A stretch of 20,436 nt of DNA from a virus. The notes under the pieces were generated by a model. It had not been told where the DNA came from. It searched no databases and was given only the letters and a program-made list of their open reading frames with translations. A program made the translations under genes and the position numbers. Shown piece after piece: positions 3,975 through 12,300 of the stretch. Location: the IMG/VR virus record IMGVR_UViG_3300034061_000032, positions 1 to 20,436 of that record. One strand, written 5' to 3'. Position 1 is the first letter of the stretch, and every line of letters starts with the position of its first letter.

Positions 3975-4409
3975 TTAAGGAAAACGAATTAGTGCCGTCG
4001 TTGCCGTATTCGCGGGCATGGTGACGGTGTTGTTAGTTGAAGTAAAAGTCTTGTCTGAACCAAAGTCCAGTACTGCTACGGTCTTGTTACTGCGGGTGGT
4101 GTTGTAGATCAAAGCACCACGAGCCTCAAAGTTAGCACCGGGCCATGACACATCAGCAAAGTCCACATACACCGTACCAGCGTTGGGGCCCGTCGTATCT
4201 GTGCTAATAGTTACGCCCGTCATGGTCACGCCACCAGCTACATAACCTGTACCGGTTACTTCATTAGATGTGGTGTACACCGTGGTCAACTGACCAATAT
4301 CAGCAAATGCCGTATACAACGCCATCTTTAGCGTGTCGGTCGCCAAGTTCTGCCCTGCTTGGAGCATCTCTTGTTTGAAGCTGTTTGTCAGTCCCTGTTG
4401 AATCGCCAT
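3975..4409 (-). CDS. Conserved phage virion/tail protein
   Basis: The 144-aa product starts at ATG 4409, one base inside the stop of the adaptor gene (TAATG). It begins QGLTNSFKQEMLQAGQNLATDTLKMALYT, a pattern I recall from numerous short phage structural proteins, continues with GTGYVAGGVTMTG, and ends with ARGALIYNTTRSNKTVAVLDFGSDKTFTSTNN. The sequence is beta-rich with little charge and no Cys. Its place between the adaptor and fibre genes suggests a tail or neck component. No enzyme motif is seen and I know no tested function for the family. Confidence 0.65.
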   Translation of the reverse strand: MAIQQGLTNSFKQEMLQAGQNLATDTLKMALYTAFADIGQLTTVYTTSNEVTGTGYVAGGVTMTGVTISTDTTGPNAGTVYVDFADVSWPGANFEARGALIYNTTRSNKTVAVLDFGSDKTFTSTNNTVTMPANTATTALIRFP

Positions 4410-5128
4410 TACGGATTCACCTTAATCTTTGCCTGACCGTCGCGGTACGCATCGCCACGCTCCAGACCTGTACCCAGACGATTGAGTTGACCCATAGCCT
4501 CTTGGTACTTCTTTTCGTACTGAGCAACCATGTCGGCTTCGCCCTTTAAGAAGGTGTACGCCTCAACCAAAGTGCCATACAGCAGTACCGGCGAGTAGCT
4601 GTCACCAAGCCATGTACGACCATCAGCCGCAACAGTAATCGACTCTGGGTAATAGTAATAGTGCAGCTCTACGTTGTAGAGAGTATCCGGAGTCGGGCCA
4701 AGAATAAAACTCAGCTCATCCGAAATAACGCTGGACGCAACGGTCGGGCCAAATAGCGCGTAGTACTTTGGAATGCCCGTGGTAGTTGGGTTCGGGTACG
4801 CCGCACGGATGAAGTTAACATCCTTGTTCAACAGGTACTCATAGTTGCCGCTACCGTCAATCACCGCCATCGAGAAGACCGACAAGAAGTCAGTCGGGCA
4901 AGACAAGTATTGATTACCGCCAGTGGTAACCCCCGTGACGTTCTTGCGGAGTGCAGGAATCTGCACCGTGTTATAAACGCGCTCTTCAGCTTGCGTAATG
5001 AACAGGTTTATCTGATCTGTACCATCAGACGGGGTAACGCCAGTCCCTGCTACGTCCGTCCAAGTATTCGTTGGAAAGTCGTTTTGCAGGTAGTTCTTGA
5101 CCGCAATGAAAAGCTCGTTGTACGTCAT
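4409..5128 (-). CDS. Head-tail adaptor protein (SU10-type adaptor-like)
   Basis: The 239-aa product starts at ATG 5128. The N-terminal helix (MTYNELFIAVKNYLQN), followed by DQINLFITQAEERVYNTVQIPALRKNVTG, is the hallmark of the phage adaptor family named after phage SU10: a small helical domain that docks on the portal. Next come a beta region (YLSCPTDFLSVFSMAVID), a YYYYPESI segment and a C-terminal helix (LVEAYTFLKGEADMVAQYEKKYQEAMGQL). Adaptors of this type form a dodecameric ring under the portal and connect it to the tail. It lies downstream of the gp4-like protein, and its stop overlaps the next ATG (TAATG). The family call is from memory of the motif pattern. Confidence 0.75.
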   Translation of the reverse strand: MTYNELFIAVKNYLQNDFPTNTWTDVAGTGVTPSDGTDQINLFITQAEERVYNTVQIPALRKNVTGVTTGGNQYLSCPTDFLSVFSMAVIDGSGNYEYLLNKDVNFIRAAYPNPTTTGIPKYYALFGPTVASSVISDELSFILGPTPDTLYNVELHYYYYPESITVAADGRTWLGDSYSPVLLYGTLVEAYTFLKGEADMVAQYEKKYQEAMGQLNRLGTGLERGDAYRDGQAKIKVNP

Positions 5129-5130
5129 GA

Positions 5131-5325
5131 TTAACCCATCGGGCCTCTTGCCATTACACCCTTAGTCGCAGCACCCGTGCCACGAATCTTTATGCCGGTC
5201 GTCTTGGTCTCTTTGTAGTTACCTTTAGTAACGACGCCACCACCGATATTCATCTCGTTGGTGTACTCAGTGCCGGTCTGATTCTTGACTTCGGCTTTGT
5301 GCGGAGATGGTTTGATCTTTTCCAT
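5131..5325 (-). CDS. Small conserved basic phage protein
   Basis: The 64-aa product starts at ATG 5325, overlapping the stop of the 57-aa gene by one base (TAATG). It has no Cys and is rich in Lys, Thr and Gly. The C-terminal half contains KETKTTGIKIRGTGAATKG and ends ARGPMG; I recall this TxGIKIRGxGAATKGxMARGPM pattern as a recurrent tiny protein in aquatic phage genomes, usually beside adaptor genes. No domain or membrane segment is visible. Its function is unknown. Confidence 0.7.
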   Translation of the reverse strand: MEKIKPSPHKAEVKNQTGTEYTNEMNIGGGVVTKGNYKETKTTGIKIRGTGAATKGVMARGPMG

Positions 5326-5506: not shown

Positions 5507-5914
5507 CTACGAGATTGTTACACTGCCTATCTGTGCGGGGGACGTTAAAGCATTTGGTGTCAGCCCTGCATCGCTACCACTTGAGCCACCAACCGGTGCC
5601 CAGCCCCACTGAAAAACCCTACTACCGCCCGACGGGTCACCAAAGTCGGTATTCAACGTCAACTGCAAACCTGTATAGCCAGACTGCAAATAGCTGTTGT
5701 CCCGACGTGGCTCCCGCACTGCCTGTGGGTCTTGCACCGGATACATACCTAACTGCAACTGTGGCTGATCCGGTTCCCAACACGTAGGACATACCTTAAT
5801 CGTAACCTGCTTGGTCTTGATCGTCAGCTTTTTCAGCTCTTTTAACTTGTAGCGAAACCCGCAGCGGTCACATTCCGCAATCGAGTTTTTCGCACTAGAA
5901 AACCTATTGCCCAT
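5507..5914 (-). CDS. Small zinc-ribbon phage protein
   Basis: The 135-aa product starts at ATG 5914, one base into the stop of the gp4-like gene (TAATG). The N-terminal half holds two CxxC knuckles, C15-D-R-C18 and C42-P-T-C45, 23 residues apart, separated by KLKELKKLTIKTKQVTIK, the classic layout of a four-Cys zinc ribbon. The segment PDQPQLQLGMYPVQDPQAVREPRRDN follows, and the C-terminal third is Gly/Ser-rich (FQWGWAPVGGSSG). I recall close relatives starting MGNRxS..AKNSIAxC in freshwater phages. It sits between the two adaptor-type genes, so a neck component or a factor made alongside the neck is plausible. Zinc binding is inferred from the Cys spacing. Confidence 0.75.
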   Translation of the reverse strand: MGNRFSSAKNSIAECDRCGFRYKLKELKKLTIKTKQVTIKVCPTCWEPDQPQLQLGMYPVQDPQAVREPRRDNSYLQSGYTGLQLTLNTDFGDPSGGSRVFQWGWAPVGGSSGSDAGLTPNALTSPAQIGSVTIS

Positions 5915-6654
5915 TAGAAGAACATTTCACGTGGAACAAGTCGATCAGCCGCCTTCTCACGGTCTTCGCCCGCCGCCAAGTCCCAAGCCTCGTCGTACAT
6001 CATCTTCAACGCTTGAATACGTCCCGGGTCAACTTCTGGCTTCTTAACTGCCAACATATATGCCAATCCTGCTACCAAGCAGTTCTGGAAGCGGAACGGG
6101 ATGTCGATCACGTTCGTGCCGGTACCGGCATCGTAAATACGCTTCAACCGCCAGTAGTAGAACACATAGTACGGGTTCAAAGTCGTTCCCTGATCCGGCG
6201 CAGGCCACACATTAATCTGTGGATTTTTTGGGATCGCTACGTTCGACCCGACTTGCTGCCCCGACTGACGGTTAATCCAGACCTGAATCGGACGCCCCTG
6301 TGCCAGCTTGTTTGGGATAGTCGAGTAGGTCGAGACCGAGATACGGGTGATGTTCAAATCCGTCTGGTTAGGGCCCTGTCCGGAATCAGTGCGAATAACA
6401 TGTTCAACCAGATCAACGGTATCAATAGGTAGATCATAGGTAGTCACTCCCTGCGCCAAGTTGATCGAGCCCTGCTCAATAGTCCACAGGTTAATGCCCC
6501 GGTTAGCCCACTCGCCAATCAGGAAGTTCAGACTACGCCGTGCGGTACGAAAATCATAGCCCGTGCGCAACTCTAAGCCACAACGCTCAAACGCCTCTTC
6601 GAATATTTCGTTGAGGTCAGGGTTGAACGCTGTTGTGTTGGTTGTAAAGGCCAT
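5914..6654 (-). CDS. gp4-like head-tail adaptor / tail accessory protein
   Basis: The 246-aa product starts at ATG 6654, overlapping the preceding stop (TAATG). The N-terminus has LNEIFEEAFERCGLELRTGYDFRTARRSLNFLIGEWANRGINLWTIEQG, a helical pattern typical of P22 gp4-like and T7 tail-tubular-A-like connectors. It is followed by TYDLPIDTVDLVEHVIRTD, a beta core with PQINVWPAPDQG, and a C-terminal helical part (FRFQNCLVAGLAYMLAVKKPEV, MMYDEAWDLAAGEDRE). These proteins bind below the portal ring, close the head after packaging and extend the tail. Having both this and the SU10-type adaptor nearby indicates a two-ring neck. The family is inferred from motif pattern and position. Confidence 0.72.
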   Translation of the reverse strand: MAFTTNTTAFNPDLNEIFEEAFERCGLELRTGYDFRTARRSLNFLIGEWANRGINLWTIEQGSINLAQGVTTYDLPIDTVDLVEHVIRTDSGQGPNQTDLNITRISVSTYSTIPNKLAQGRPIQVWINRQSGQQVGSNVAIPKNPQINVWPAPDQGTTLNPYYVFYYWRLKRIYDAGTGTNVIDIPFRFQNCLVAGLAYMLAVKKPEVDPGRIQALKMMYDEAWDLAAGEDREKAADRLVPREMFF

Positions 6655-6887
6655 TACCTAAACCCCGCTGTTTTCTTTGCGATGCTCTTGGGTTGTGCTA
6701 CGAACTGCTTTCCCGCTTTCTTCCCCGCCCGCTTTGCCTTGGTCGTTGCTGCGTACTCCGCTGGGCTTAACGCCTTGATCGCTTTTTCTGGCAGGTACCT
6801 TTCGCCAGTCTTTGAGGATGGCTTGCCACTCTTTGTGCGCCATTTCTGATCCCCCCAGTTTTTAAGCGATTGTTGCGGGGCTTTCAT
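6654..6887 (-). CDS. Small basic protein, C-terminal half of a DUF5872-like pair
   Basis: The frame is open further upstream, but the likely start is ATG 6887: it lies two bases after the TAG of the preceding gene (TAGTATG), making a stop-restart junction and a 77-aa product. The sequence (KNWGDQKWRTKSGKPS, TGERYLPEKAIKALSP, AATTKAKRAGKKAGKQF, PKSIAKKTAGFR) matches what I recall as the second half of DUF5872-type proteins of phages and large algal viruses, where it follows the GQWSARKAQL part in one chain. Here that first half is the preceding gene, in another frame. It is very basic with no Cys. Function is unknown; nucleic-acid binding is plausible. An alternative start at 6977 would make 107 aa overlapping the upstream gene. 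Confidence 0.75.
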   Translation of the reverse strand: MKAPQQSLKNWGDQKWRTKSGKPSSKTGERYLPEKAIKALSPAEYAATTKAKRAGKKAGKQFVAQPKSIAKKTAGFR

Positions 6888-6888
6888 A

Positions 6889-7164
6889 CTAGTCCTTGTA
6901 CCCGCCGCCAGCGGCTTTGTACTTCTTCGCCACCAACTGCGCTTTACGTGCTGACCATTGACCTGCACCCGTGCCATGCGTGGCTGCGGCTTTCACTTGG
7001 CTCACGATCTTCTTACGTAGACCGGGCTTGGTGTAATTACCAGCAGCATTAACCTTCCCGCCTTCTTTGTACTGCGTAAAGTCGGTGTCATCCCGGCGCT
7101 TTTTCTTCTTTGCACCGGGCATCTTGGAAGGGTTAATTGCACCCATGCCGCGAGAGGCCATCAT
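6889..7164 (-). CDS. DUF5872-like small basic protein (N-terminal half)
   Basis: The product is 91 aa from ATG 7164 (90 from the adjacent ATG 7161); TAATG overlaps the upstream stop, and AAGGGCGGG in the preceding gene's last codons could serve as Shine-Dalgarno. Recognisable stretches are NYTKPGLRKKIVSQVKAAATHG, then GAGQWSARKAQLVAKKYKAAGGGYK, the signature I associate with DUF5872. Residues 14-24 are a Lys/Arg patch (KMPGAKKKKRR), and EGGKVNAAG resembles the GGKVSSAS start of the C-terminal tag in neighbouring proteins. In relatives I recall, the chain continues into the QKSLxxWxxQKWRT region; here a TAG stops it and the next gene restarts two bases later. The role is unknown. Confidence 0.78.
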   Translation of the reverse strand: MMASRGMGAINPSKMPGAKKKKRRDDTDFTQYKEGGKVNAAGNYTKPGLRKKIVSQVKAAATHGTGAGQWSARKAQLVAKKYKAAGGGYKD

Positions 7165-7640
7165 TAGCAGTACCCGCCCTTACGCATACCTTTGGCACCA
7201 GCCATGACAATCTGCTTGCCCTTGGTTTTGCCTTTAACAGCAACACCATCTTTGCTAGGAGCAGCGGTTTTAACAGTGCCCATCTTCGATGCAGCCATAC
7301 CGCCTTTTGCCATCTTGCCCTTACCATCAGCAGCAAAAGCTGGCACTTTCTGACCATCCTTCATGACCATCGGCATACCGCCGGAAGCGTAGCCGCCCTT
7401 TGCCATCTTCTTCATGCCAGCTTCTTTCATCTCGTGCTTGATCATGGACTTAGGAGCACCCTTCTTCTTCATGAAGCCGATCTCCTTCTTGACCATTGCT
7501 TTTGACTCTTTCATCTCACCGCCTCCTGATTTAGTGAACTCTTGTCCCACGGTTACAGGGACGCCGACCTTCTTTGCGAACTTCGGGTTATTCGCCACTG
7601 CTTGCATGAATCTTTCCTGTTTGGCAGATTTAGCTGGCAT
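7164..7640 (-). CDS. Lys/Gly/Met-rich protein with MKESKAM...KKKGAPKSM motif and C-terminal Cys
   Basis: The ATG at 7640 overlaps the upstream TAA (TAATG) and has AAAGGAAGGAT before it, so I prefer it to the in-frame TTG at 7646; the product is 158 aa. The N-terminus PAKSAKQERFMQAVANNP, then KVGVPVTVGQEF, MKESKAMVKKEIGFMKKKG and APKSMIKHEMKEAG are motifs I recall from freshwater phage proteins. The second half carries MAKGGYASGGM, MAKGGMAAS, a KGKTKGKQIVMAGAKG segment and the ending MRKGGYC. The only Cys is the last residue. The KGKTKG segment may be a distant copy of the RGKTRGR tag of the three upstream genes. Highly basic and probably largely disordered. Function unknown. Confidence 0.75.
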   Translation of the reverse strand: MPAKSAKQERFMQAVANNPKFAKKVGVPVTVGQEFTKSGGGEMKESKAMVKKEIGFMKKKGAPKSMIKHEMKEAGMKKMAKGGYASGGMPMVMKDGQKVPAFAADGKGKMAKGGMAASKMGTVKTAAPSKDGVAVKGKTKGKQIVMAGAKGMRKGGYC

Positions 7641-8158
7641 TAGCAAATCCTTCCTTTGGTCTTACCACGCTGAGCAATACCATCTGCACGGCTGGAAGCA
7701 GAAGACACCTTGCCGCCTTTACGGAACGCTCTTCCGCCTTCGCCTTCCCAAGCTGCTTCTTCTGTGCTGATACTACGCACTGGAGACCTCATGCTGCGCT
7801 CTTCTTTGCCTTTAGCAAGTGCACGTTCTTTACGCTCTTGCTCAGACCGCTTCATCCCGCTAAGTGCTGCTGCCGCACCAAGAGCTACACCGGTACTAGC
7901 AAGGCCAGCTGTTACGCCACGAGAACGCTTATCGCTGTCTTCTTTTTCTTTGTCAGACTTAACTTTGGCGGAGGACTCTTCGCGTGAAAGCCGCTTGCTC
8001 TCGGCTTCGGACTCATCCGGGCCTTTAGCTTTTTCTTTCATCTTGGTGTTGTACTTCTCACCGTTCCACTCAAAAGTCTTCTTACCCTCTTTGCGAGCTT
8101 CGGCAAAGGCTTCTTTAAAAGTAGAGCCCTTGTCGTCGTAGTGTAGTTTCTCTTTCAT
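7640..8158 (-). CDS. Basic protein with FxWNGExYxTK N-terminal motif, hydrophobic segment and C-terminal tag
   Basis: The start is ATG 8158 (TAATG with the upstream stop; GGGAGAA before it), giving 172 aa; an in-frame TTG two codons earlier is less likely. Residues 12-38 (STFKEAFAEARKEGKKTFEW then NGEKYNTK) are a small motif found, as I recall, in many unrelated phage proteins. A charged Lys/Glu/Ser linker follows, then a Gly/Ala-rich hydrophobic stretch at 81-101 (GVTAGLASTGVALGAAAALSG) that could cross or insert into a membrane. The last 25 residues form the shared tag (GGKVSSASSRADGIAQ, RGKTKGRIC), with the only Cys at the end. The modular build of a recurring head and a shared tail around a variable middle is notable. 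Function unknown. Confidence 0.75.
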   Translation of the reverse strand: MKEKLHYDDKGSTFKEAFAEARKEGKKTFEWNGEKYNTKMKEKAKGPDESEAESKRLSREESSAKVKSDKEKEDSDKRSRGVTAGLASTGVALGAAAALSGMKRSEQERKERALAKGKEERSMRSPVRSISTEEAAWEGEGGRAFRKGGKVSSASSRADGIAQRGKTKGRIC

Positions 8159-8499
8159 TAGCAAATTCTCCCACGTGTTTTGCCGCGCTGGGCAATGCCA
8201 TCAGCACGAGCCGACGCTGAACTAACTTTGCCGCCAGCTTTCATGCCGCTTTCCTTGGATTTTTTTAAACTTTCAAGTGCAGCTTTGCCAGCTGATTCCG
8301 CAGCACTCTTTTCTTTTTCTTTTACAGGCGGCTTTGAAGGCGCCATCTTTAAACCAATCCCGAGTAATGCCTCACGAATGCTTTTGCGCGGGGCTTCATT
8401 CTCCGCGCGCTCTTTCTTTAACTGTTTCTCGTACTCCTCGTATTCTTTCTTTACGAGTGCATCTCTACGAGCGTTTTCAATTTCGTTTTCCATAGGCAT
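8158..8499 (-). CDS. Small basic coiled-coil protein with the shared C-terminal tag
   Basis: The 113-aa product starts at ATG 8499 (TAATG with the upstream stop; GCGGGAGGG just before). The N-terminal 45 residues (NEIENARRDALVKKEYEEYE, KQLKKERAENEAPRKSIREA) look like a charged coiled coil; then comes ALLGIGLKMAPSKPPVKEKE and a Lys/Ser/Ala linker. The last 25 residues are the tag GGKVSSASARADGIAQ plus RGKTRGRIC, differing from its two neighbours at only a few positions. The terminal Cys is the only one. No enzyme motif is visible. The neighbours share nothing but the tag, so it is probably a transplanted module for a common partner or location; this is inference. Confidence 0.75.
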   Translation of the reverse strand: MPMENEIENARRDALVKKEYEEYEKQLKKERAENEAPRKSIREALLGIGLKMAPSKPPVKEKEKSAAESAGKAALESLKKSKESGMKAGGKVSSASARADGIAQRGKTRGRIC

Positions 8500-9260
8500 T
8501 ACAGAACCCTCCCGCGAGTCTTGCCGCGCTGTGCGATACCATCAGCACGCTTGGACGCTGAACTTACCGAGCCGCCAGATGCGTACTTCTTGACTGCGCC
8601 GCCTTTTCTCATGCCCTCGGCTTCGCGCTTACGCCGCGCTTCGACTTCCCGTGCAGCATCAGCCATACGTTGCTGTGGAGTACGCACCACGCTTTTACCA
8701 GCCGAATCAATAGAGCCCTTGATACGCTCGCCAAGAGTCTGTGTGCCTTTAGCTTCCCCCGGTTTAATCATGCCTAAGGTCTCACCAACGGATTGAGTAC
8801 CCTTTACCCCCGAGCTAGACACGGTAGGTTTCTTAGGCGGAGGGGTGTAGTAAGTAGAAGGCGTAGTGTTAGAAGATTCACTAGCAGTAGACGCTTTCTT
8901 AGCCGGGGTTGTAGCTGCTGTAGGCTTCTTAACCGCAGGCTTTGGCTTTGGCTTTGGCGTAGGGTAGTTATCACTACGCATTACTGCTTCATCGGCGTCT
9001 TCAGGGATAAGTTCAGGACGGCCTTTCGACACGGCTTCCGCACGTTTTCTTGCGGCTTCGTCTACTTTTTTCTCGTCCCCAAGCGTGCTTCTATTCTTCC
9101 CAGAATAATCGCTCTTATCAGTCGGGACACTGCCTTTTTCGTCCTTATCCTCCCCACCCTCGCCCTTCAGCTTCTTATATAGGGCATAGCCGAGCATACC
9201 CGCGCCTATGGTGTTCAGGATGTCGCCGCCACTGGCAAACTTTCTGGTTTTCTTTTTCAC
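8499..9260 (-). CDS. Lys/Pro-rich protein with N-terminal hydrophobic segment and the shared C-terminal tag
   Basis: The 253-aa product starts at GTG 9260, overlapping the upstream TGA (GTGA), with GGAGAG a few bases upstream. Residues 1-12 (MKKKTRKFASGG) are basic, then DILNTIGAGMLGYALYKKLKG gives a short Gly-rich hydrophobic helix (14-31, GxGxxG spacing). The middle is low-complexity: KPKPKPAVKKP, Ser/Thr/Pro runs, and a Lys/Arg/Glu helix near the end (MADAAREVEARRKREAEGMRK). The last 25 residues are the tag GGSVSSASKRADGIAQ plus RGKTRGRVL, here ending in Leu rather than Cys. KKYASGG just before the tag echoes RKFASGG at the N-terminus. Probably mostly disordered; membrane association is possible. 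Function unknown. Confidence 0.75.
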   Translation of the reverse strand: MKKKTRKFASGGDILNTIGAGMLGYALYKKLKGEGGEDKDEKGSVPTDKSDYSGKNRSTLGDEKKVDEAARKRAEAVSKGRPELIPEDADEAVMRSDNYPTPKPKPKPAVKKPTAATTPAKKASTASESSNTTPSTYYTPPPKKPTVSSSGVKGTQSVGETLGMIKPGEAKGTQTLGERIKGSIDSAGKSVVRTPQQRMADAAREVEARRKREAEGMRKGGAVKKYASGGSVSSASKRADGIAQRGKTRGRVL

Positions 9261-9545: not shown

Positions 9546-9800
9546 TCAGCACTTCCATGCTCTAAGTGATTTATTAATACGGCTATTCGGGTCGTTCGCG
9601 GTCTTAGCTGAAGTCAGCTTTTTCTTCATGCCTGACATACGGGCACAGAATGACTTCTTCCTAGCCCCGCCTTCCGGCTGGGGGGCTTTTAGACCGGGCT
9701 TCCCCGGATTGGCTGCGTTATACGAAGCACGTCCTTTGGCGTTTAAGCCGCCCTTCTCGGACTTACCTTCCTTGCGCTGCCATGCTGGAGTCTTAGCCAT
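9546..9800 (-). CDS. DUF6321-like small basic protein
   Basis: The 84-aa product starts at ATG 9800, overlapping the end of the preceding gene by 8 bases. Almost the whole chain is a pattern I recall as DUF6321 from aquatic phages and large viruses: PAWQRKEGKSEKGGLNAKG, RASYNAANPGKPGLKAPQPE, GGARKKSFCARMSGMKKKL, TSAKTANDPNSRINKSLRAW, ending KC. It is strongly basic, with two Cys, one the last residue. Conservation along the full length argues for a specific fold or binding surface. I know no established function. The domain name is from memory and would need a profile search to confirm. Confidence 0.8.
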   Translation of the reverse strand: MAKTPAWQRKEGKSEKGGLNAKGRASYNAANPGKPGLKAPQPEGGARKKSFCARMSGMKKKLTSAKTANDPNSRINKSLRAWKC

Positions 9801-10284
9801 AGAACACCGTCGCAGTTACCGATGAGCCACAACCCACAAAGATACCGTTAGGGCAGTAGATACCTTCGCCGGGGATCAGTACAGGTAGGCCAATCGTATT
9901 AAAAGTATCAATTTCTAGCGCAATACTGCTATACATCGTGACGTTACCGCTTGTGGTCGTAGTCGGCGCATCTGCACAAGTAAACGTGTTTGCACCCGTC
10001 TTTGTGATTGTGTACGCACCGTCCCGTCCCGCGCCAGACGTAAAGTCTAGAAATACCCGATCTCCAGTCTCAAGGCCGTGATCTGTAATGGTCACAGTAA
10101 TCGTGGCACTCGGGCTTGTACGGCTGTATGTCCCAGACTTCTGCTCTGTTGGGTCACATATACAGGTAGTCCTTAAAGACGCGGTTGCACTTGTCACCGT
10201 GATCGACTTCAGCCGTACGGGAATCTGCGTTACCAACAGTCCAGTACCTGCTGCACGGGCGGACTTAACGTCTGTTTGCATCAT
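9793..10284 (-). CDS. Beta-rich virion-type protein, paralogue of the preceding gene
   Basis: The 163-aa product starts at ATG 10284 (ATGATG, so 10281 is an equal alternative). It aligns along its whole length with the product of 10289-10777: both have xxQxDVKS near the N-terminus, TITVTITDHGLETGDRVFLD then FTSG, NTFTCADAPTTTTSGNVTMY, LIPGEGI, and end TVFYG. The HGLxxGDxVxLxFTSG...NTFTV core resembles a small beta-barrel insert (FCCH-like) that turns up in many phage tail and capsid-surface proteins. It has several Cys but no CxxC pairing. Lying just downstream of the capsid gene, it may be a capsid decoration or head-fibre protein. No enzyme function is seen. Confidence 0.68.
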   Translation of the reverse strand: MMQTDVKSARAAGTGLLVTQIPVRLKSITVTSATASLRTTCICDPTEQKSGTYSRTSPSATITVTITDHGLETGDRVFLDFTSGAGRDGAYTITKTGANTFTCADAPTTTTSGNVTMYSSIALEIDTFNTIGLPVLIPGEGIYCPNGIFVGCGSSVTATVFYG

Positions 10285-10288
10285 GGCG

Positions 10289-10777
10289 CTACCCGTAAAA
10301 AATAGTCATCGTTACCGTGGTAGACGGCAACAAGCAAAACAGACCGCCTTGCGCAAGAACGCCTTCGCCCGGAATCAACGTGTAAAACGCCGTACCCGAA
10401 GAACAATCCAACTCGACAAGCACCTTCGGGTACATCGTCACGTTACCGCTGGTGGTCAAACTCGCTGTGGTTACAGTAAACGTGTTCGTTGTTACGTTTG
10501 ATACTTCGTACGAATCGTCTACCGCTGTACCACTAGTGAAGTTAAGACCCACCGTATCGCCATTGGAAAGCCCATGATTAGCGATGGTAACTGTGCAAGT
10601 CGTTGACCCCGGAATGTCGTACGTACCCGACAGCGCCCCAACAGTATCAACCACGCATGAGTTAAACGTCGTCGAAGTTGAGGGCGAAATAACTATGCCC
10701 TTCAACCGGGTACGATCCGCGTACGCAAGCGAAGAGCTTGTCGCGTGGAATGACTTTACGTCGTATTGCATCGCCAT
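10289..10777 (-). CDS. Beta-rich virion-type protein, first of a tandem pair
   Basis: The 162-aa product starts at ATG 10777 with TGAGGAG upstream. It contains TCTVTIANHGLSNGDTVGLN then FTSG, NTFTVTTASLTTSGNVTMY, FYTLIPGEGV and the ending MTIFYG, and matches the next gene's product over its full length with no large insertion. The two genes are four bases apart and are probably a diverged tandem duplication. The conserved ends and variable N-terminal third suggest a common assembly interface with different outer surfaces. Capsid decoration or a virion accessory role is my inference from the position after the capsid gene and the beta-rich, low-charge composition. Confidence 0.68.
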   Translation of the reverse strand: MAMQYDVKSFHATSSSLAYADRTRLKGIVISPSTSTTFNSCVVDTVGALSGTYDIPGSTTCTVTIANHGLSNGDTVGLNFTSGTAVDDSYEVSNVTTNTFTVTTASLTTSGNVTMYPKVLVELDCSSGTAFYTLIPGEGVLAQGGLFCLLPSTTVTMTIFYG

Positions 10778-11391: not shown

Positions 11392-12300
11392 TTACGCGCC
11401 TTGCGAGCCGTACATGCCCAGCGGGTCAGACCAGCCGAACGAATAACGCTCACGAGCCTTGTAACGGACGTTGCCGGTATCAAAGTCACCGTCCATCGAG
11501 TTAGCCAGCGGGCTACGAACAAAGTGCTTCATGCCGTTTGGAACGTCAGTGGTCAGGAACCATGCGTTTGTGTCGGTCAAGAAGTGGTTGATCGTATAGC
11601 CTTCTGGGATCGAACCATTGTTCTTCAGAGCGTTGATGTCGTTGTCGTTAGTGCCGACGCGGAGTTCGGTTTCCAACAGACGAGTAGCAACGAACTGGAG
11701 AGCAGGAGGAACAATCAGCTTCTTCGGCTTAGCAGCGATCAGCAGACCACGTTCGTCAGTCCACGCAGCGATTTGAATCACAGCGTTTTCCAGCGAAGTT
11801 TCGTTCAAGTCAGCAGCAGTAGCTGGGATGTTCGAGTTGGTGCCACCGGAGACGAGTGGGTGGTTAGCGTTGAACAGGGAGACATTGTCACCGCCCGGAT
11901 AGGACGACGAGAAGCCGTTGTTCAGGACGTTAGCCGCCTTAACTTGCTTGGTGTAAGCCATAGCACGAGCCAGAGCCTTGGTATAACGAGCCGACAGGCT
12001 GTCATACAGGTTATCTTCGATGGCCTCTTCGGTCAGCGAGAAACCCAGAGCAATGGTTTCGTGGTTGTAGCGAGCAGTCCATGCTTCTTGTGCATTGTCG
12101 TACGCGATTGCAGAACCTTCGTTCTTAACCGGTGCGGCACTAAAGCCAGACAGCTTGGTTTCTTCTTCAAACGAACGCTCGGAAGTCTCGGTTTCGTAGA
12201 TTTCCTTGTGCTCTTCGCCGTAGCGGGCATACTCCAGACCGAACAGGGCGTTCAGGCCGGGGAGCAGCTCTTTCAGTAGTTGTGCGCGTGAAATAGCCAT
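11392..12300 (-). CDS. Major capsid protein (Mu gpT-like, HK97 fold)
   Basis: The 302-aa product starts at ATG 12300 behind an AAGGAGC Shine-Dalgarno site. The sequence follows the Mu gpT-type major head subunit family: N-terminal helix MAISRAQLLKELLPGLNALF, a glutamate-rich arm (EEHKEIYETETSERSFEEET), GFSLTEEAIEDNLYDSLSAR (the family's alpha/loop region), ALARAMAYTKQVKAANVLNN, FNANHPLVSGG, then PKKLIVPPALQFVATRLLET and the C-terminal ARERYSFGWSDPLGMYGSQG. The latter half matches the family signature RxxYSFGWxDPxxxYGSxG. It should form the icosahedral shell. It follows the scaffold-like and 217-aa genes and is followed directly by a strong terminator. No maturation protease gene is visible nearby. 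Confidence 0.9.
   Translation of the reverse strand: MAISRAQLLKELLPGLNALFGLEYARYGEEHKEIYETETSERSFEEETKLSGFSAAPVKNEGSAIAYDNAQEAWTARYNHETIALGFSLTEEAIEDNLYDSLSARYTKALARAMAYTKQVKAANVLNNGFSSSYPGGDNVSLFNANHPLVSGGTNSNIPATAADLNETSLENAVIQIAAWTDERGLLIAAKPKKLIVPPALQFVATRLLETELRVGTNDNDINALKNNGSIPEGYTINHFLTDTNAWFLTTDVPNGMKHFVRSPLANSMDGDFDTGNVRYKARERYSFGWSDPLGMYGSQGA

Follow-up and report, generated by a model that had tools for sequence, protein, structure and literature searches.

Three neighbouring minus-strand genes in a virus record encode otherwise unrelated proteins that end in the same peptide, and the same tag terminates proteins of changing sequence at a single late locus in hundreds of related phages. 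By analogy with the T4 capsid-targeting sequence (CTS) and with encapsulin targeting peptides, we put the probability at roughly one half that the tag works as these do, as a C-terminal capsid-loading address on turnover-prone virion cargo. Capsid loading is favoured because a constant terminal peptide on changing bodies, encoded at one late locus beside the capsid gene, is what a targeting signal would look like, with precedents in T4, P1 and encapsulins.

The DNA analysed, hereafter the window, is the whole of the 20,436-base IMG/VR virus record IMGVR_UViG_3300034061_000032. Its genes, nearly all on the minus strand, form a late structural module of the short-tailed SU10/Pam1 phage type and include those for TerL, a portal, GroES, a scaffold-like protein, the major capsid protein (MCP; 11392..12300, minus strand; HK97-type, PF25209/Mu gpT-like), an SU10-type adaptor and tail proteins. 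A PHROGs and Pfam scan identified no prohead protease gene among the window ORFs of this incomplete genome, and Rfam gave no match in the window. The closest cultured relatives by TerL (41-54% identity) are Phage DSL-LC04, Pelagibacter phages HTVC027P and HTVC023P, 023Pt_psg01 and Planktothrix phage Pag-Yong1. Gene order is common to the window and the tag loci, and nearly all tagged genes lie between a DUF6321 gene (9546..9800, minus strand; PF19846) and the adaptor gene (5914..6654, minus strand; PF24175), which by synteny form the upstream and downstream borders of the tagged island.

Several features of this neighbourhood were recorded in passing. DUF6321 is present in 546 phage records; it stands alone in the window, whereas a cyanomyovirus protein labelled "structural protein" (S-B43 QDH50481.1) has it as C-terminal module, and in one locus it (L123:1374-1727) has a RADG-type tag appended. 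Downstream of the capsid and decoration-like genes, two adjacent, paralogous-looking proteins of 162 and 163 aa (10289-10777 and 9793-10284, minus strand) both end in T.T.FYG. In some relatives, ORFs that by eye look like homing endonucleases (GIY-YIG/HNH-like) are inserted directly behind the capsid gene, at L243:11023-11730, L251:1473-2054 and L233:10964-11824.

The earlier note had described three consecutive proteins with a common C-terminal tag, and we found all three as described. ORFs 9260-8499, 8499-8158 and 8158-7640, whose starts were assigned mechanically, end in GGxVSSASxRADGIAQRGKT[RK]GR[VI][LC], and a tag HMM matches each of them with 52-54 bits (E about 1e-13 to 1e-14). Within the record, the tag written as a degenerate DNA pattern matched three times, solely at the three tag sites, and its reversed control gave 0 matches; the shared ending is therefore not due to chance. 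Protein 1 (8499..9260, minus strand; 253 aa, GTG start; tag HMM 52.4 bits) has a short hydrophobic N-terminal stretch, a Pro/Lys/Thr-rich body predicted to be disordered, and then the tag, GGSVSSASKRADGIAQRGKTRGRVL (8502..8576, minus strand). In protein 2 (8158..8499, minus strand; 113 aa) a charged, predicted helical body precedes the tag GGKVSSASARADGIAQRGKTRGRIC (8161..8235, minus strand). Protein 3 (7640..8158, minus strand; 172 aa) combines an N-terminal FxxAFxxARxxGxxxFxWNGxxY module, a disordered middle and the tag GGKVSSASSRADGIAQRGKTKGRIC (7643..7717, minus strand). All three tags were placed from the sequence and the tag HMM.

AF2 models gave protein 2, with a 54-row alignment, confident body helices at residues 2-46 and 62-82, and a low-confidence short helix over SARADGIAQRG in its tag (pLDDT about 55-60). 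For protein 3 alone, residues 12-40 formed a helix and a beta-hairpin at pLDDT about 80-88, with the rest below 60. The tag alone yielded no confident AF2 fold. These models suggest that it is best viewed as a linear peptide, which may fold on a partner. Crass-like, Rhizobium T7-like and uvMED phages, and microviruses too, have the module seen at residues 12-40 of protein 3 (FxxAFxxARxxGxxxFxWNGxxYxT), placed N-terminally, internally or C-terminally. Its crAss-like carrier in cr107_1 is located at a similar place to gp45, a verified cargo protein of crAss001; a relationship of the module to gp45 was dropped when BLAST found no similarity.

A fourth member of the island (7164..7640, minus strand; 158 aa, or from a TTG start at 7646) carries a degenerate, extended tag, APSKDGVAVKGKTKGKQIVMAGAKGMRKGGYC, in which the region at 7215..7286 (minus strand) gives a profile match to SKDGVAVKGKTKGK and its surroundings (15.3 bits, E 0.05). 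Homologues elsewhere have canonical copies, such as GGSASSRADGIAQRGKTKGKMLNKGGMAC. It is the most constant protein of the island, matched in 102 of the 119 tag loci listed, with the match spanning 60% or more of its length in 84. Its N-terminal module reads SKxQxxFMxAVAxNPxFAKKxGVPxSVG; the N-terminal 38 aa are 63% identical to phiKZ PHIKZ165.1, and the module also begins proteins annotated as structural in the jumbo phages 121Q and CBB. In the main text of PMC5259590 we found no mass-spectrometric evidence that would support the CBB protein.

To survey the tag we scanned IMG/VR with a degenerate DNA pattern for the tag core that left its position free, and obtained at least 119 tagged loci; every genome with the canonical tag is metagenomic. 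These scans started from RADG plus Ile, so divergent tags are under-sampled. A search for C-terminal position, proposed in the earlier note, found 197 of 197 regular-expression matches, among the matches listed from these loci, to lie 3-15 residues from the stop. Applied to 27,623 mechanical ORFs, a profile of 150 tags gave 339 matches at E<1e-6, all of them C-terminal and at most 15 residues from the stop codon, and 371 of 374 matches were C-terminal at E<1e-4. The motif is thus not scattered at random inside proteins. Because the first set of loci had been chosen by the tag, we also picked loci by MCP alone. Among these 33 MCP-to-adaptor islands (32 relatives and the window), 31 contain one to three tagged ORFs (E<1e-3), the remaining two hold degenerate copies detected by eye, and no tagged ORF was found outside the island on the 33 loci at the same profile threshold. 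Long IMG/VR records of 40-87 kb told the same story, with tag matches in 20 of 21, in one stretch of a few kb plus a few weak outliers.

Outside IMG/VR, a scan of 84,980 species genomes with the DNA pattern gave a single match, on a contig of 5.9 kb that had been binned with a gammaproteobacterial MAG, and tblastn of INPHARED with 27- and 32-aa tags found no match. Canonical tags seem absent from the cultured phages searched, which yielded one diverged copy, in Planktothrix phage Pag-Yong1. Its protein UMO75986.1 is encoded between minor capsid and adaptor genes, ends in GGMIGRDGCAKRGRTKGRFI and matches the tag profile with E 3.6e-5 in a genome search. It differs from the tagged proteins described here in being a single diverged copy with a 308-aa body that has no relatives beyond near-identical phages. 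The tag matched no PHROG, and the open papers searched, like Pfam, PHROGs, NCBIfam, PADLOC and PDB, contained no earlier description of it.

Across the collection, the tag consensus is KKGGxVSSASxRADG[IC]AxRGKT[RK]G[KR][MI][CV], a C-terminal peptide of about 20 residues. About 11 internal residues of the core, RADGxAxxGKTxG, are near-invariant, a constancy partly fixed by the search pattern; extended tags continue for 10-15 further residues, and 35% of tags end in Cys. We considered whether the tag could be a degradation or timing signal for a host ClpXP-like protease, since it is C-terminal and basic and its last residue is hydrophobic or Cys. The C-terminal signal of MuA, basic with a hydrophobic C-terminus, is similar in spirit. 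For known C-terminal degrons a few residues suffice, however, and such a signal would account neither for the near-invariant internal positions nor for the extension beyond the core, so we consider a degron very unlikely. Nucleic-acid binding had also been suggested in the earlier note. The basic character of the tag is real, but charge does not explain why D, G, A and T are invariant, and the pure form of that proposal is therefore less likely.

Other terminal motifs were encountered during these searches. A small protein near the g64 locus (L099:8345-8533, L260:5772-5960 and L118:13505-13729) has the motif at the opposite end, the N-terminus, as MAFT[KR]SADG[IV]AxKGKTxGKN. A second C-terminal motif, RGTGAATKGxMxRGPM[AG], occurs at 5158-5184 in the protein encoded at 5131-5325 (minus strand), which is alone between a zinc-ribbon-like gene (5507-5914) and a second adaptor-like gene (4409-5128); all 164 matches to this motif in the fetched loci are 7-8 residues from the stop, and Pelagibacter phage HTVC023P has RGVGAAIRGHKFIGVK at a C-terminus. 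In Phage DSL-LC04, neighbouring genes between GroES and portal (L124:7313-7657 and L124:7667-7918) encode proteins with the tails GYAKGGLVTSKGQGRVIRSKKTRIC and GMKSGGSVQGPFMEVLRKDAKKKTKIY, which are different but alike and are possibly another tag of the same kind.

The proteins that carry the tag have little else in common. No genome contained a homologous pair of bodies, and the three in the window are not homologous to one another; the earlier note, too, had called them otherwise unrelated. After removal of the tag, 196 bodies among the matches listed fell into 101 clusters (masked BLAST, E<1e-3), which is an upper estimate of the number of independent families because disordered proteins diverge past detection and some bodies share short modules. 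At E<1e-3, about 300 fetched loci contained no match to the bodies of proteins 1 and 2; the body of protein 3 matched in 19 of them, the best matches being confined to its N-terminal ~60 residues. Core head proteins of the tagged phages, in contrast, are 44-88% identical, with medians of 88% for MCP (48 tagged loci), 62% for portal and 44% for scaffold. A sibling of the window, locus L101, illustrates the pattern: TerL is 95%, MCP 93% and adaptor 91% identical, and most core proteins fall within 80-95%, yet one unrelated Pro/Gly-rich body with the same tag replaces proteins 2 and 3, the counterpart of protein 1 is only 31% identical, and the fourth member 47%. The census across related phages thus lends strong support to the earlier proposal that a tag kept while bodies diverge marks a common address.

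The bodies are basic, 87% are predicted to be disordered by charge-hydropathy, and they contain 44 cysteines in 39,853 residues. No recognised function was found for them in Pfam, PHROGs, PADLOC, PDB or NCBIfam. Searches with 108 tagged proteins returned DUF6321, once, from Pfam; matches only through the fourth-member and DUF6321 modules from PHROGs; nothing from PADLOC; weak TonB/ATPase matches alone from NCBIfam; and no credible match from PDB. Small, Cys-poor, mostly unfolded bodies would suit passage through the portal. They could instead serve as scaffold-like or assembly factors and not as injected cargo. On a related explanation, the tag would be a peptide that docks its carriers in the neck or head interior, at the portal, the adaptor or the DNA surface, for a structural role; the carriers would be minor structural or DNA-condensing products that are never delivered. 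The tagged locus adjoins the adaptor gene, bodies and tags each have a median net charge of +5, and a cyanophage structural protein includes neighbours such as DUF6321 as modules, all of which would agree with such a role. Structural docking should nevertheless constrain the bodies, and siblings swap them wholesale; we therefore regard it as unlikely, though less so than the other alternatives discussed here.

Codon choice shows at which level the tag is maintained. Codons for the same tag residue differ in 56% of cases within genomes and 60% between genomes, against 64% expected if they were independent. Synonymous codons in the tag are thus almost randomised, which shows that selection at the protein level maintains the tag; the same divergence rules out recent duplication or gene conversion as the source of the shared ending. 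The last Gly codon is the exception: 67% of tags have GGA or GGG there, but only 12% and 4% have either codon at the two remaining Gly positions. The next ATG overlaps the stop or begins within 15 nt in 175 of 187 tags. At the three window junctions the ATG overlaps TAA and a Shine-Dalgarno sequence lies eight bases before it: GGGAGG (8508..8513, minus strand) within the Gly-Arg codons of tag 1, for protein 2; GGGAGA (8167..8172, minus strand) in tag 2, for protein 3; and GGAAGG (7649..7654, minus strand) in tag 3, for the fourth member. As read from the DNA, the final Gly-Lys/Arg codons of the tag double as the Shine-Dalgarno sequence of the next gene. Because the 3' end of a tag gene holds this ribosome-binding site (RBS), body, tag and RBS would form an exchangeable unit.

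The codon bias and the close or overlapping ATG raise the question of whether the DNA, and not the peptide, is the selected element, so that the tag would be an incidental by-product of gene-start overlap in a translational-coupling or recombination element. This explanation covers only the last four codons, whereas the RADGIAQRGKT core is written in near-random synonymous codons. We found no nucleotide conservation beyond the needs of the peptide such as an autonomous DNA-level element should have, the bias being limited to the last Gly-Lys/Arg codons. By these codon data the by-product reading is largely refuted for the core, and we hold it to be the least probable of the alternatives.

Several known systems bear on the capsid-loading proposal. 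In T4, an N-terminal CTS brings small basic internal proteins into the prohead; these proteins vary between relatives, and IPI blocks a host restriction enzyme (PMC9026906). The CTS of IPI, IPII, IPIII and Alt resembles the tag as a short terminal peptide on several small basic proteins, and among T4 relatives the bodies, like the tagged ones, show little conservation whereas the head genes do (PMC9026906). As in T4, one short peptide is found on several divergent proteins of one phage. The T4 CTS is N-terminal, however, and the tag C-terminal in all 339 strong matches; moreover, the CTS comprises 10-19 residues, is cleaved by the prohead protease gp21 and has no noticed sequence likeness to the tag, and T4 has only a few such proteins. 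Phage P1 offers a further parallel, because the first 30 residues of DarB suffice to send a reporter into the capsid (PMC9024508). DarB thus has a terminal capsid-targeting peptide, as proposed for the tag, on an anti-restriction cargo (PMC9024508), but its signal is N-terminal and the Dar proteins have no common consensus. Several inner-body and ejection proteins of phiKZ and SPN3US likewise carry propeptides inferred to target the head (PMC5694885), although these are N-terminal, longer and protease-processed and belong to jumbo myoviruses. It counts against capsid loading that the known phage targeting sequences are N-terminal and often removed by a protease.

The targeting peptides of family 1 encapsulins are, as an analogy, a closer positional precedent than the T4 CTS. 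They are short conserved C-termini on different cargo and are recognised by an HK97-fold shell (PMC8346489). Similarly, the tag is a short conserved C-terminal peptide behind a linker that is predicted to be disordered and flexible. Encapsulins differ in being bacterial compartments with the consensus SDGSLGIGSLKRS, folded-enzyme cargo and experimentally shown binding (PMC8346489). The column frequencies of the tag do not correspond to SDGSLGIGSLKRS or a TVGSL-like motif, and the MCP is a phage capsid protein encoded beside portal and terminase genes rather than a family 1 encapsulin shell. Because features of position or sequence are lacking in each case, the tag belongs to neither the CTS nor the encapsulin family.

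The capsid-loading model can be set out as follows. The tag would be a linear sorting signal, and each tagged protein would consist of a small, basic, mostly unstructured body, a Gly-rich hinge and the common peptide. Made in the late head operon, between the capsid and adaptor genes, these proteins would be recognised through the peptide by one constant partner in the assembling procapsid, and virions would carry the varied cargo and probably deliver it together with the DNA. Bodies would be free to turn over because only the tag must be kept, and the set of bodies could be a host-takeover or anti-defence locus. Virion location, a receptor, ejection and an anti-host role are what we infer for the tagged proteins. 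A specific address of the kinds first suggested, namely capsid loading or scaffold or portal binding, fits the locus, its neighbours and the precedent of the T4 internal proteins.

As receptor, the MCP is our first candidate, since no other large protein of the tagged phages comes near it in conservation; this is a correlation only. The small, conserved products of g91 (6889-7164) and g107 (6654-6977), which neighbour the island genes, had been considered because cultured relatives lacking the tag have no match to them; both were excluded because L101 keeps its tags and has no match to either. The tag might also recruit its carriers to another phage-made intracellular machine, such as a GroES partner complex or membrane lysis proteins, instead of to virions. 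GroES and a membrane coiled-coil (spanin/holin-like) gene do lie in the same module, but cultured relatives without the tag also have GroES, and correlation tests singled out neither gene, which leaves this destination improbable, if slightly less so than a degron. An extended form of the capsid-loading reading, which we advance tentatively and with less confidence than the address itself, is that in a widespread group of phages a dedicated C-terminal capsid-shipping peptide with an embedded RBS acts as a plug-in socket, to which roughly a hundred or more unrelated disordered proteins can be attached, to be swapped between phages and injected into hosts.

If the tag is a capsid address, virion cargo would be predictable from sequence alone for every protein that carries it, and hundreds of unannotated small phage proteins would become candidate injected host-takeover or anti-defence factors. 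The tag would then also provide a C-terminal loading peptide for reporters. Were the plug-in socket reading true, the system would be a C-terminal counterpart of the T4 internal proteins on a much larger scale, with a portable cargo-loading tag. Even with another receptor, the tag marks a large set of unrelated orphan proteins as one functional class. If the address is real, the arrangement of a terminal signal and a freely changing body, known from T4 and P1, would have arisen separately, and at the C-terminus, in SU10/Pam1-like podoviruses.
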